From the NCBI GenBank assembly GCA_944386645.1, contig CALXBW010000014.1, forward strand, positions 1 through 42,605: 42,605 nucleotides of DNA, in the 5' to 3' direction. This document shows positions 3,467 to 33,516 of the stretch, in pieces. The stretch's first letter is position 1; each line of letters begins with the position of its first letter. Under the pieces are notes generated by a model. That model made no database searches and had not been told where the DNA came from. It was given only the letters and a program-made list of their open reading frames with translations. A program made the position numbers and the translations under genes. The DNA is from an uncultured Clostridia bacterium (lineage in GTDB: Bacteria; Bacillota; Clostridia; TANB77; CAG-508).

Positions 3467-5461
3467 CTATTTATCATTTATCTTATTCCATATTCTTCTA
3501 TTTTTATACCAGTTTTCAATTGACCTTGTAAGAGCTAAATCATTAGTATCTTTGATTACATTTGATTTTAGCATTTTTACAACCTCATTAATAAATAATT
3601 CTTCAATTTTTTGCCATGAATTAAGAGATTGTTCAACTATTTCTTCATCTGTCCCTTTAAATTTTTTTATAGAAAAGTTATATTGTTGTGCAAATTTATT
3701 TAATTCATAGTCACAATCTATTTCACCTAATTGATTCATTATATAATTCAATAAAAAGTGATCAATTGATTTTGACCAAGTCATAAGTTCATAAATTTTA
3801 TTCTTAACCTCTCCCCTAGATGTTTTATATAATCCTTTTAATGAGTATAATACTGGGAAATTATAATCAATCCATCTTTGACAATAATCACTTACTAAAC
3901 CTATCCTTTTATTAAAATATATAACTTTATATCTAGCCATATTCATATCAATTCCAATCAAAAGCTTTGTATTGTTTTTCTTCTCAAAATTATTAATTTT
4001 CAATGCATATGCTGTGTCAAATAATACTTCCAAAGAAGTTAATGGATAAGATACTTTATAATATAATGGTTTACATTGTAATTTCAAATATTCTGAATCA
4101 ATATTGTTAACTATAGCATCATAAATTTCTTCTAATGTAATCTTATTAAAATCAGCATGTTTATATAAAATATCTTTTCTTTCTACAAACTTATGACTTT
4201 CTTTTATATCATTAAAGTTTTCCATCAAAGGATCAAATGAAATATATCCTATTCTAATATTTATACCCAGAGCAGTTATTAGTTTTATTGCAGTAGCATT
4301 CTGATAAGCAGTGGTTCCTTTATTAAATCTTCTTAATTGATTATCACTACCAGACTCAACTCCTAAAAATAATCTTTGTAATCCTATCTCTTTTAGTAAT
4401 TTCCACATATGTAGATGATCTATATTTTCTTTTTTTGTTGCTTCAGGTTTAAATATAGAATCTACCCTAGCTGATATATCGAATTTTATTTTTATATTTA
4501 ATTGTTTTATACCCTTACAAAATTCTTCTATTCTTTTTAATTCAAGAGCATGTGGTAATTGTCCAATAAATTCTTCATCTGCAATGTAAAAGAAAGGCTC
4601 CTTTTTTACTTTTTTACAAACTTTCTCTAGAGTCTTAAAATATAATACCATTGTATCTACTGATAAACCTCTCCATCTCGCTCCCTTATGATTTCTTGGA
4701 CAGAATATGCATTTTGAATAATTACAGCCTCTACTTAACTCTAATGTAAGCGCTCCTTTATATTTAATTACATCTTCTATAGTATCTATTGCTGGAAAAG
4801 GTAATTCATCCATCTCCAGAAAATCAATGTCATTTCGTTTATACTCACCATTTTTATTAATATATGCAATTCCTATAACATCCTCAATATTTTTTTTACC
4901 TGAAGTGTAGTCTATCAAATCTAATAACGATTTTTCTCCCTCTCTATATGAAACAATAATTTTCTTATGTTTCATCAAATACTCTTTACTATATAATGAA
5001 GGTATTACATTTCCAACAACAATTGTACTTTTATCTATTTCTTTAGATGAGCTAATTTTATTTATTAGCTCATCCGAAATATATTTTTGTCCAAAACTAA
5101 TTGATATACCAATTAATTGAAATTTATCTTTTTGCAATATTTTTATAATATCATCAACTTTTATTCTAAGTTGCATATCCAATATTCTAACTCTTGCCTT
5201 CTGATATTTTCTAATATATGCTGCAATAGAACCTGTTGACAAATTTAATCTTGGAATTGGAAAATTTTCAAGTACACACATATTTATCAAACATACTTTT
5301 GGTAAATCATTTAAGTCATATTGAAAATTTTTTATCACTGCAATACCATTATTAAATTTAATTTTATCAATACTATATTCTTTTAATAAGAAAGCATTTT
5401 CGACATCAGAATTTTCATTAAACACATAAAGCTTATCTTTTTTCTGAATATATACATACAT
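3467..5461 (-). CDS. Radical SAM protein with N-terminal B12-binding-like domain
   Basis: A 664-residue protein. Residues about 55-190 look like a cobalamin-binding Rossmann-type domain (ILDMQLRIKVDDIIKILQ, GISISFGQ, IVVGNVIPS), followed at about 240-470 by a radical SAM barrel beginning ELSRGCNYSKCIFCPR. The cluster cysteines are spaced C-x4-C-x2-C rather than the classical C-x3-C-x2-C, a spacing found in some B12-type radical SAM groups. A helical C-terminal part of about 190 residues matches nothing I recognise. AGGAG lies 11 nt before the ATG. A 37-aa ORF and a broken HD phosphohydrolase gene lie directly upstream in the same direction, suggesting one operon. The substrate is unknown. Confidence 0.82.
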   Translation of the reverse strand: MYVYIQKKDKLYVFNENSDVENAFLLKEYSIDKIKFNNGIAVIKNFQYDLNDLPKVCLINMCVLENFPIPRLNLSTGSIAAYIRKYQKARVRILDMQLRIKVDDIIKILQKDKFQLIGISISFGQKYISDELINKISSSKEIDKSTIVVGNVIPSLYSKEYLMKHKKIIVSYREGEKSLLDLIDYTSGKKNIEDVIGIAYINKNGEYKRNDIDFLEMDELPFPAIDTIEDVIKYKGALTLELSRGCNYSKCIFCPRNHKGARWRGLSVDTMVLYFKTLEKVCKKVKKEPFFYIADEEFIGQLPHALELKRIEEFCKGIKQLNIKIKFDISARVDSIFKPEATKKENIDHLHMWKLLKEIGLQRLFLGVESGSDNQLRRFNKGTTAYQNATAIKLITALGINIRIGYISFDPLMENFNDIKESHKFVERKDILYKHADFNKITLEEIYDAIVNNIDSEYLKLQCKPLYYKVSYPLTSLEVLFDTAYALKINNFEKKNNTKLLIGIDMNMARYKVIYFNKRIGLVSDYCQRWIDYNFPVLYSLKGLYKTSRGEVKNKIYELMTWSKSIDHFLLNYIMNQLGEIDCDYELNKFAQQYNFSIKKFKGTDEEIVEQSLNSWQKIEELFINEVVKMLKSNVIKDTNDLALTRSIENWYKNRRIWNKINDK

Positions 5462-18223: not shown

Positions 18224-18374
18224 AAGGAAAAAATAATGTACTTTTTATGAAGTAACAATTCGTGGGGACCAGCAAGCTACAGTCTGTTATATATTAATTC
18301 ATGTTATTTATATATTATATTACAGACTGTGTGATGCTGGGAGTTACAAATAAAAAATACATTATTTTTTCCTT
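18224..18374. other. Large hairpin element A (151 nt)
   Basis: A 17-bp perfect A/T-rich outer stem (18224-18240 / 18358-18374) continues with a CTTTTTAT / ATAAAAA segment, GTAAC/GTTAC, an asymmetric bulge AATTCGTGGGGA, CCAGCA/TGCTGG, ACAGTCTGT/ACAGACTGT and an A/T inner arm. Almost the whole element is paired. It lies between the toxin promoter and the DUF2798 gene promoter and encodes no protein. It could be a structured RNA, a double-stranded-RNA-like hairpin or a miniature transposable element. Confidence 0.6.
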
Positions 18375-18425: not shown

Positions 18426-18459
18426 TTGACTTACATAATTTTTTTAATTATGGTATAAT
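18426..18459 (+). promoter_or_regulatory. Promoter of the DUF2798 gene
   Basis: Extended -10 TGGTATAAT (TATAAT at 18454-18459) with TTGACT at 18426-18431; the spacing is 22 nt to TATAAT, or 17 nt to TATGGT. Transcription would begin near 18466. Confidence 0.5.
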
Positions 18460-18465
18460 TTTTTA

Positions 18466-18520
18466 GTCAGCGTGTAGCTTTAATTGCGTAAATCCAGTTG
18501 AAGTTCACGCAATTTTTATG
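18466..18520 (+). promoter_or_regulatory. Putative attenuator / riboswitch-like leader
   Basis: Two hairpins that cannot coexist. Fold 1 pairs GCGTG (18470-18474) with CACGC (18506-18510), and CTTTAA (18478-18483) with TTGAAG (18498-18503). Fold 2 pairs AATTGCGT (18482-18489) with ACGCAATT (18507-18514) and is followed by TTTTT, like a terminator. Choice between them could control the DUF2798 gene. The ligand is unknown and it matches no riboswitch class I know. Confidence 0.45.
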
Positions 18521-18546
18521 TAAAAAAATAAGGAAGGAGATATTTT

Positions 18547-19029
18547 ATGCCAACAAACAAAAAAGAAGGATTATTATATGGAATTTGTATGTGCTTTATA
18601 ATGGCTTATGGAATGGCTTTACTTAATATTTCTATTAATATGAACGGACTTAATTTTGATTCTGTACTAGCTACATCAAAAGCTTTTCCTATGATTTTTG
18701 TAATAGCTTTTATTATTGAAAATACTGTTGTTCATTTTCTAAGCCAAAAACTAGTTGCTAAATTTACTAGACGTAATGACAGCCAAAATGCACATATATT
18801 ATTTAATTCATTTTTTATTGTAACAATGATGTCTATTATTATGACAATTATAGGTGGGTTATTAAGTCATGGAAATATTGTTAGTGTATTAAGTAATTTC
18901 TTTTCAACTTGGCCTAGAAACTTTTGTGCTGCTTTATTTTTAAACTTATTAATAGCAGGACCTATAAGTAGATTTATTTTATCAAAATATAAATCAGTTG
19001 TAGAAGTAAGAAACAGCATCAATGATTAA
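18547..19029 (+). CDS. DUF2798-family membrane protein
   Basis: 160 residues with four predicted membrane segments arranged as two similar halves: EGLLYGICMCFIMAYGMALL and FPMIFVIAFIIENTVVHFL, then FFIVTMMSIIMTIIGGLLSH and WPRNFCAALFLNLLIAGPIS. The repeated pattern and the P-R/P-I-S helix ends resemble DUF2798 proteins, of unknown function. GGAAGGAG lies before the ATG. It is the only complete plus-strand protein gene seen in the window, and its leader carries alternative hairpins. Its terminator overlaps the stop codon. Confidence 0.75.
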   Translation: MPTNKKEGLLYGICMCFIMAYGMALLNISINMNGLNFDSVLATSKAFPMIFVIAFIIENTVVHFLSQKLVAKFTRRNDSQNAHILFNSFFIVTMMSIIMTIIGGLLSHGNIVSVLSNFFSTWPRNFCAALFLNLLIAGPISRFILSKYKSVVEVRNSIND

Positions 19030-19075: not shown

Positions 19076-19173
19076 AAAAATTAATATATTATTTTTGAAA
19101 GTCGAGGTAGTTGTACATCGTATGCTCATACTTGCGGAGCATGTGAGACCGAAAAAATAATATATTAATTTTT
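19076..19173. other. Large hairpin element B (98 nt)
   Basis: 21-bp perfect A/T outer stem (19076-19096 / 19153-19173) enclosing a GC-richer 56-nt core with GGT/ACC and ATGCTC/GAGCAT pairs. It sits between convergent genes (DUF2798 and guanine deaminase), after the DUF2798 terminator. The structured core is more than a terminator needs. Sequence unrelated to element A, but similar in plan. Confidence 0.55.
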
Positions 19174-31907: not shown

Positions 31908-33516
31908 GTATTAATACATCTTATGTTAAAGTTTAACGGGCGCAGATACTTTATTGCATAAATTAATTGGGTAATTTAAATACATCTTATGTTAAAGTTT
32001 AACAAAATATAATTCTATGAATGATACTTTATTAGAATTATTTAAATACATCTTATGTTAAAGTTTAACATATACAAACACAGAAGAACCAGCAACAATT
32101 ACTTATTTAAATACATCTTATGTTAAAGTTTAACTCTCTATCAGATATTATTGTATTATCTAATGCTTTTATTTAAATACATCTTATGTTAAAGTTTAAC
32201 ATATATTCTAACATTAAATCTATTTGTCTTTTTATTTATTTAAATACATCTTATGTTAAAGTTTAACACAGCATAAAAGATATAAATAATTTTAAAAGAG
32301 AATATTTAAATACATCTTATGTTAAAGTTTAACATATTGTTTTTATGCAATATCTATTTTTAGTTTAATAAATTTAAATACATCTTATGTTAAAGTTTAA
32401 CATGCTTAGGCAACTTATAAGCAAATGGGGAATTAATTTAAATACATCTTATGTTAAAGTTTAACGCACATAAAGGATACACATTTTGGGAAAAAGATTT
32501 ATTTAAATACATCTTATGTTAAAGTTTAACGCAGAAATATTAGATAAAAGCAAATTAGAAAATTGATTTAAATACATCTTATGTTAAAGTTTAACAAGAG
32601 TCCCCGTTCCCGGCTCTAGTCCCGCAAGCTTATTTAAATACATCTTATGTTAAAGTTTAACAGATAAAGATAGCAAATATTATGATAAATTTTTATGATT
32701 TAAATACATCTTATGTTAAAGTTTAACTTAATAAATGAGATGAAAGTTAAAGGCGTAGAAGTATTTAAATACATCTTATGTTAAAGTTTAACATTAAAGC
32801 TCTTTTTCTTCTTTTAAAAGTCTCCTCATTTAAATACATCTTATGTTAAAGTTTAACTTTCATATAAGTTATTTCTTCAAAATCGAATGGCTTTATTTAA
32901 ATACATCTTATGTTAAAGTTTAACTTATATTAGTAAAATTTACTATCCCATTTTTATCTATTTAAATACATCTTATGTTAAAGTTTAACTTAAAATTAAT
33001 AATACTAGATAAGTTAATTTTAATAATTTAAATACATCTTATGTTAAAGTTTAACATAGCTCAAATAAGTGGAACTTTTGCTAAAATTAAATTTAAATAC
33101 ATCTTATGTTAAAGTTTAACATTTATTTCTGTTATAACACCTGTTGTTTTTAATTTATTTAAATACATCTTATGTTAAAGTTTAACTGAAAATGAAATTA
33201 TTTCAACTATTAATCAATCTGCATTTAAATACATCTTATGTTAAAGTTTAACTATTTAAATTCGGCAGAGGCTTATAAAGATGTAAATGATTTAAATACA
33301 TCTTATGTTAAAGTTTAACAAAACACGGACTAATGTTAAGTAGTGTAGAATCAATATTTAAATACATCTTATGTTAAAGTTTAACGCATTCATCACTTGT
33401 ATATAGTCCATTACTTTCTTTATTTAAATACATCTTATGTTAAAGTTTAACAAAATATGGGAAGATAAAGGAATTGCTTGGTTTTGATTTAAATACATCT
33501 TATGTTAAAGTTTAAC
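31908..33516 (-). CRISPR. Type I-B CRISPR array, 25 repeats and 24 spacers
   Basis: The repeat is 30 bp. In the transcribed (minus) direction it begins GTTAAACTTTAAC and ends GATGTATTTAAAT, the form seen with type I-B systems of Clostridia. Spacers are 34-38 bp, mostly 35-36. All repeats are identical except the leftmost (31908-31937), which has three changes, as expected at the leader-distal end. The leader is therefore at the right, beside cas2. One spacer (32596-32631) is 61% GC, far above the rest. Spacer origins cannot be determined without a search. Confidence 0.98.

Follow-up and report, generated by a model that had tools for sequence, protein, structure and literature searches.

The stretch of DNA analysed here (the window, 42,605 nucleotides of an uncultured Clostridia bacterium whose assembly comprises 1.69 Mb in 72 contigs) contains a DUF2798 membrane protein gene that is separated from its promoter by a short leader, and the question raised by this locus is whether the leader is a transcription switch and, if so, which of its folds terminates transcription, which fold competes with the terminator, and what decides between the two. 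A sequence-only reading had proposed a terminator/antiterminator arrangement outside the known families, built on two stems that share the letters CACGC, and had assigned the terminator to the shorter stem. The features around the leader are the following:

18430-18459, + strand: sigma-A type promoter (CTTACA at 18430-18435, 18 nt, TATAAT at 18454-18459, with TG before the -10 box)
18466-18546, + strand: leader, between the promoter and the DUF2798 gene
18470-18510, + strand: terminator hairpin of type II, part 1, GCGTG (18470-18474) with CACGC (18506-18510), based on folding and covariation
18476-18486 with 18495-18505, + strand: the same hairpin, part 2, AGCTTTAATTG with CAGTTGAAGTT
18482-18514, + strand: the shorter stem of the earlier reading, AATTGCGT (18482-18489) with ACGCAATT (18507-18514), which can form, its conservation not being general
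18513-18517, + strand: U-run of the terminator, from the sequence
18530-18539, + strand: ribosome binding site AAGGAAGGAG, from the sequence
18547-19029, + strand: gene for a membrane protein of the DUF2798 family (PF11391), 160 aa with four long helices predicted

The gene is flanked by two different MITE-like repeats: an inverted-repeat element of about 150 bp at 18224-18374, just upstream of the promoter, with 25-nt arms that are 96% complementary (complete or in part, it occurs about 40 times in the 1.69-Mb genome, at 70-96% identity), and an unrelated inverted-repeat element at 19076-19173, just after the gene, with perfect 21-nt arms (more than 20 near-full copies at 86-96% identity). 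Elsewhere in the window, a CRISPR array of 24 repeats (Rfam CRISPR-DR3) occupies 31974-33516.

In the minimum-energy fold of the leader, the GCGTG/CACGC stem is stacked on AGCTTTAATTG/CAGTTGAAGTT; the whole leader of 81 nt folds with -21 kcal/mol (z -3.5, matched by none of 200 shuffles), and its 54-nt core with -19 kcal/mol (z -5.4). The letters AATTTTT sit right at the end of this outer hairpin, which is therefore terminator-like; a simple terminator scan of the window listed nothing at the leader. The stem AATTGCGT/ACGCAATT is far weaker, at -6.8 kcal/mol (z -1.9). The sharing of CACGC at 18506-18510 is present in the sequence as had been claimed, and both stems exist, but the shorter and weaker one was wrongly taken as the terminator: the terminator is the stronger, outer hairpin. 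Nor does the shorter stem qualify as a conserved alternative, being formable in only nine of 45 comparable relatives of the same terminator type; it is retained in the nearest relatives.

The conserved competitor of the terminator, which the earlier reading had missed, is a different and compact fold of 35 nt, placed by comparative sequence analysis at the 5' end of the transcript; it consists of an outer stem (P1), an internal loop of 14 nt and a small hairpin (P2):

18467-18471, + strand: 5' strand of P1, UCAGC, paired with 18497-18501, with covariation of P1 seen across 78 sequences
18472-18476, + strand: 5' side of the internal loop, GUGUA (consensus GNGUA), with G1 and G3 the same in all 78 copies
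18477-18487, + strand: P2 hairpin, GC-UUUAAUU-GC, of 2 bp in the window and 2-5 bp in most relatives
18488-18496, + strand: 3' side of the internal loop, GUAAAUCCA (consensus GUAARUCCR), with U2, A3, A4 and U6 the same in all 78 copies
18497-18501, + strand: 3' strand of P1, GUUGA, from the parsed copies, folding and covariation

The 79 copies that we have parsed follow one consistent plan, P1 - GNGUA - P2 hairpin - GUAARUCCR - P1', with at least 10 positions of the internal loop nearly invariant (78 parsed copies); the registers were chosen partly by stem length, but the near-invariance of the anchors gave this choice little freedom. When 18 copies are lined up, invariant letters stand on both sides of a small variable hairpin, 94% of the cells are paired and 10 cells are changed on both sides, a pair count that is equalled by none of 500 shuffles (permutation p 0.0002) and that is far lower in slid versions of the alignment. 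The changes preserve pairing in both stems: P1 alternates between CG, UA and UG at position 1 and between AU, UA, GC and GU at position 2, while P2 alternates between GC and AU at position 1, CG and UA at position 2, and UA, GC, CG and AU at position 3, giving variants such as GCC/GGC, GUU/AAC, GCA/UGC, GUG/CAC and ACC/GGU, among others. Among 27 representatives below 80% identity, 81 of 81 pairs are kept in P1 and 69 of 75 in P2 (p about 5e-5). Because related sequences inflate pair counts, we have also run 300 structure-free simulations on the inferred tree, where the summed covariation reached a maximum of 0.43, against 1.68 in the real copies.

The leader also stands before DUF2798 in a genome of the same genus (86% protein identity) and in L007 (47%), and is carried by four further DUF2798 relatives; thus, the comparative expectation has been borne out, as homologues keep the leader and the competing helices covary. 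A covariance model built from six leaders (A2/R1) extended the matches to other families and, within the phylum, to other classes, where they lie ahead of MATE and MFS exporters. A second model, R2, restricted to the P1/loop/P2 element, located 69 places, which are spread over 61 of the 391 Clostridia genomes and 44 of the 223 genera. Of the simpler searches, the strict pattern GTGTAGC..TCCAGTTG returned mostly chance matches within the order. A viral scan gave nothing with a strict pattern; a looser one led to a metagenomic contig (L205) on which two copies, both convincing, stand in tandem, about 330 nt apart (4267-4626), the first preceding a 79-aa reading frame (MKRVKAACICQTLHF...) and the second a MATE gene, its other matches being chance-like. 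The DUF2798 leader of Paenibacillus polymyxa, a candidate raised through GTGTGTAG, was rejected: it is devoid of GUAARUCC and is unmatched by R2.

Folding from P1 to the U-run has assigned 46 copies, including the window, to type II and 27 to type I, with six in neither, several of which had been ended early at a T-run in the loop. In type II, the 5' side of the loop and the 5' strand of P2 pair with the 3' arm of the terminator; in type I, the 3' strand of P2 and GUAARUCC make up its 5' arm. Nearly all copies carry a terminator that destroys the element, by capturing the 5' side in type II and the 3' side in type I, and the expression platform and the aptamer-like fold are mutually exclusive in both types, as judged by sequence and folding. 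In the window, the terminator takes bases of P1, of both loop sides and of P2, and therefore excludes the aptamer-like fold. The terminator of the 46 type II copies covaries in its own right, also at the N position that varies in GNGUA (UA in 18, AU in 14, CG in 6) and at position 2 of P2 (CG in 19, UA in 18). That the leader is structured, with mutually exclusive terminator and aptamer-like folds, is well supported, and we hold it with high confidence.

Of 60 relatives, 52 have a TATAAT-like box (5/6) no more than 26 nt ahead of GNGUA (shuffled mean 25), mostly at a distance of 9-11 nt; the start of transcription is therefore probably close to the first base of P1, and with the element opening the transcript a leader peptide would have no space. 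Since the same bases enter two exclusive helices, and the aptamer and the terminator are incompatible in both types, we infer an ON switch. In the mechanism that we propose, the first ~35 nt of the transcript, starting at P1, could fold into P1, the 14-nt internal loop GNGUA/GUAARUCCR and the P2 hairpin; if nothing stabilised this fold, the 3' half of the leader would invade and pair with the 5' side of the element, giving the strong hairpin with its U-run, and RNA polymerase would stop before DUF2798; a ligand would hold the element together, block the terminator and allow the gene to be transcribed, the most likely ligand being a toxic small molecule expelled by the transporters encoded downstream. 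The aptamer-like fold on its own is weak in the window (about -2.9 kcal/mol, against -19 kcal/mol for the terminator), so that strong stabilisation or kinetic trapping would be needed.

The genes below the element suggest what kind of ligand this could be. Gene calls were made with Pfam and NCBIfam on group representatives, the remaining frames being joined by BLASTP, and the 62 downstream reading frames comprise 32 MATE exporters, 12 CarD-like genes (CarD_TRCF_RID), four ABC exporters, four MFS exporters (three of the EmrB/LmrB type and one other), two DUF2798 genes beyond the known ones, one UvrA and one TetR, the rest being single cases; one copy in front of a CarD-like gene belongs to Subdoligranulum variabile. 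Thus, the element precedes several genes that are non-homologous yet functionally related, while the CarD-like regulators below 12 of the 62 copies show no obvious exporter context. The leader is shared by DUF2798 relatives, as the earlier reading had supposed, but it is not specific to them, most copies preceding MATE, ABC, MFS and CarD-like genes. As for DUF2798 itself, the Pfam match to PF11391 is clear of its cut-off (30.2 against 23.5 bits) and the predicted model has four long helices (pLDDT 78); a comparison of this model with the PDB gave no significant match, which makes an export role a guess.

DUF2798 genes seem to have acquired terminator leaders of many kinds. Apart from the leader described so far (type A), a second conserved type consists of AUUGGAAACGNACAU, a hairpin and AUGAUAACGAACAACACA, sometimes with a terminator after it, and is possibly another orphan RNA; we have found it in ten of the sequences compared, a search matched it in 5 of 148 genomes, and those scanned had no Rfam match. 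A third conserved type has ACGCGUAUAAUNGUUCAGCGUG followed by a strong terminator (six sequences), a fourth is a long hairpin, resembling a terminator, that carries conserved bases close to the tip (three sequences), and a fifth is marked by CAGUCGCAGUGAAAAAUAAGUAGCGAGACGUAAGUUUUGCUGCUUAUUUUUU (two sequences). In one genome (G629; L038, L137), the DUF2798 gene with a leader of the fourth type is closely followed by a type A copy.

Taken together, we consider it likely that the leader belongs to an orphan class of transcription-terminating, riboswitch-like RNAs that act as ligand-stabilised ON switches of exporters, and sensing of a small molecule is the likely candidate function of the class. 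In a wider picture, which we favour only slightly, an undescribed class of riboswitches that is common among Clostridia would detect a toxic compound of host, dietary or microbial origin and turn on several unrelated exporter families; DUF2798 would be a new family that exports or detoxifies this compound, and a single aptamer would have been combined with two opposite terminator designs (5' or 3' side sequestered). The candidate class is compact and concrete, with a clear gene set (MATE, ABC, MFS, DUF2798, CarD-like), and searches for the ligand can therefore focus on compounds that are exported by Clostridia; it offers a possible toxin-responsive sensor of only about 50 nt, a route by which the DUF2798 family could gain a function, and a clean natural case of two different terminator designs driven by one aptamer.

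A protein could take the place of the small molecule, binding the conserved internal loop and preventing termination in the manner of BglG/LicT-type antiterminators, possibly with the involvement of the CarD-like proteins whose genes follow 12 of the 62 copies. The LicT/SacY RAT antiterminator sites are likewise small hairpins with asymmetric loops that exclude a terminator, and a conserved asymmetric loop overlapping the terminator is their architecture; they differ from the present class in that they are protein-bound, belong to sugar genes and have a different sequence. The regulated genes here are unrelated exporters, one element is combined with two different terminators, which is aptamer-like behaviour, Rfam gives no match, and no shared neighbouring regulator was seen in the neighbourhoods, which were looked at unsystematically; we regard a protein-bound element as unlikely, if worth keeping in mind.

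Control could also be exerted with no ligand, by the kinetics of transcription: the aptamer-like fold would be a transient antiterminator with a lifetime set by the speed of RNA polymerase, and drugs that slow transcription or deplete nucleotides would raise exporter expression. The element does form first, right at the 5' end, and UvrA and CarD-like factors are among the genes, but such an attenuator needs helices and not a 14-nt internal loop with at least 10 nearly invariant positions, and we find it quite improbable. Least credible of the explanations is a plain intrinsic terminator, or attenuation through translation of an upstream reading frame: the hairpin would make a good terminator and GTG TAG does occur within the motif, but the motif begins about 6 nt past the probable start site, too close for a ribosome to bind, the triplet that would serve as start codon (GNG) has T, A or C at its N across copies, no conserved translatable reading frame or start codon was found in the leader, where a ribosome site would have no room before the terminator, and the conservation of the internal loop and the covariation would be left unexplained.

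Returning to a ligand-stabilised ON switch, the class can be compared with systems already described. Rfam 15 gave nothing above the gathering cut-off for the window leader or the related leaders, in agreement with the claim that the leader lies outside known families; a resemblance to PyrR sites was dropped as it had no Rfam support. In the main texts of open-access papers, searched for DUF2798, guanidine-IV and MATE/CarD riboswitches, the motif was nowhere described; a prior or supplementary listing elsewhere is possible.

The closest relatives in behaviour are the guanidine-IV (GGAM-1, mepA motif) and Gd4v riboswitches, which are ON switches that control MATE genes through a terminator in which conserved bases are embedded (PMC7736828, PMC9788692); MATE genes, terminator control and hairpins joined by a pseudoknot are also described in PMC11611296 and PMC12186494. 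The class described here shares the terminator-linked ON control, the MATE genes downstream and the conserved bases in the terminator region, and it could conceivably be a divergent guanidine-IV or Gd4v riboswitch. We consider this very improbable: those riboswitches are about 95 nt long, with two consecutive hairpins and a loop-loop pseudoknot (PMC7736828, PMC9788692), whereas ours is a single P1-loop-P2 element of 35 nt that overlaps the terminator and has no separate 5' hairpin. Their genes are sugE/PnuC/GNAT or PRK07324 transaminase, whereas here CarD-like, ABC, MFS and DUF2798 genes occur besides MATE, and sugE was not seen among the 62 downstream genes. R2 does not match the Listeria SugE leader L192, the only likely guanidine-IV sequence compared, which appears by eye to fit the guanidine-IV description (CCACCGG and AGGUC loops). 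A route to guanidine-IV through the SugE genes of Clostridia was abandoned, their leaders reading by eye as guanidine-I. A SerC-like aminotransferase lies 239 nt downstream in a single case (L137).

The HMP-PP (thiS) riboswitch resembles the class in having its aptamer embedded in the terminator (PMC6478431), and differs in its thiamin genes, the class here having no Rfam match. The azaaromatic (yjdF) riboswitch, RF01764, resembles it in the link to toxic compounds and differs in being about 100 nt long and a separate Rfam family, by which the type A leaders are not matched; in one sequence (L062, 1289-1386, minus strand), an azaaromatic riboswitch adjoins the type A element of a CarD-like gene. 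Transcription-terminating riboswitches are a known kind, and the present case is best described as new in the class itself, in its exporter regulon and in its two opposite terminator designs, set apart from guanidine-IV and Gd4v mainly by comparison with their published descriptions.
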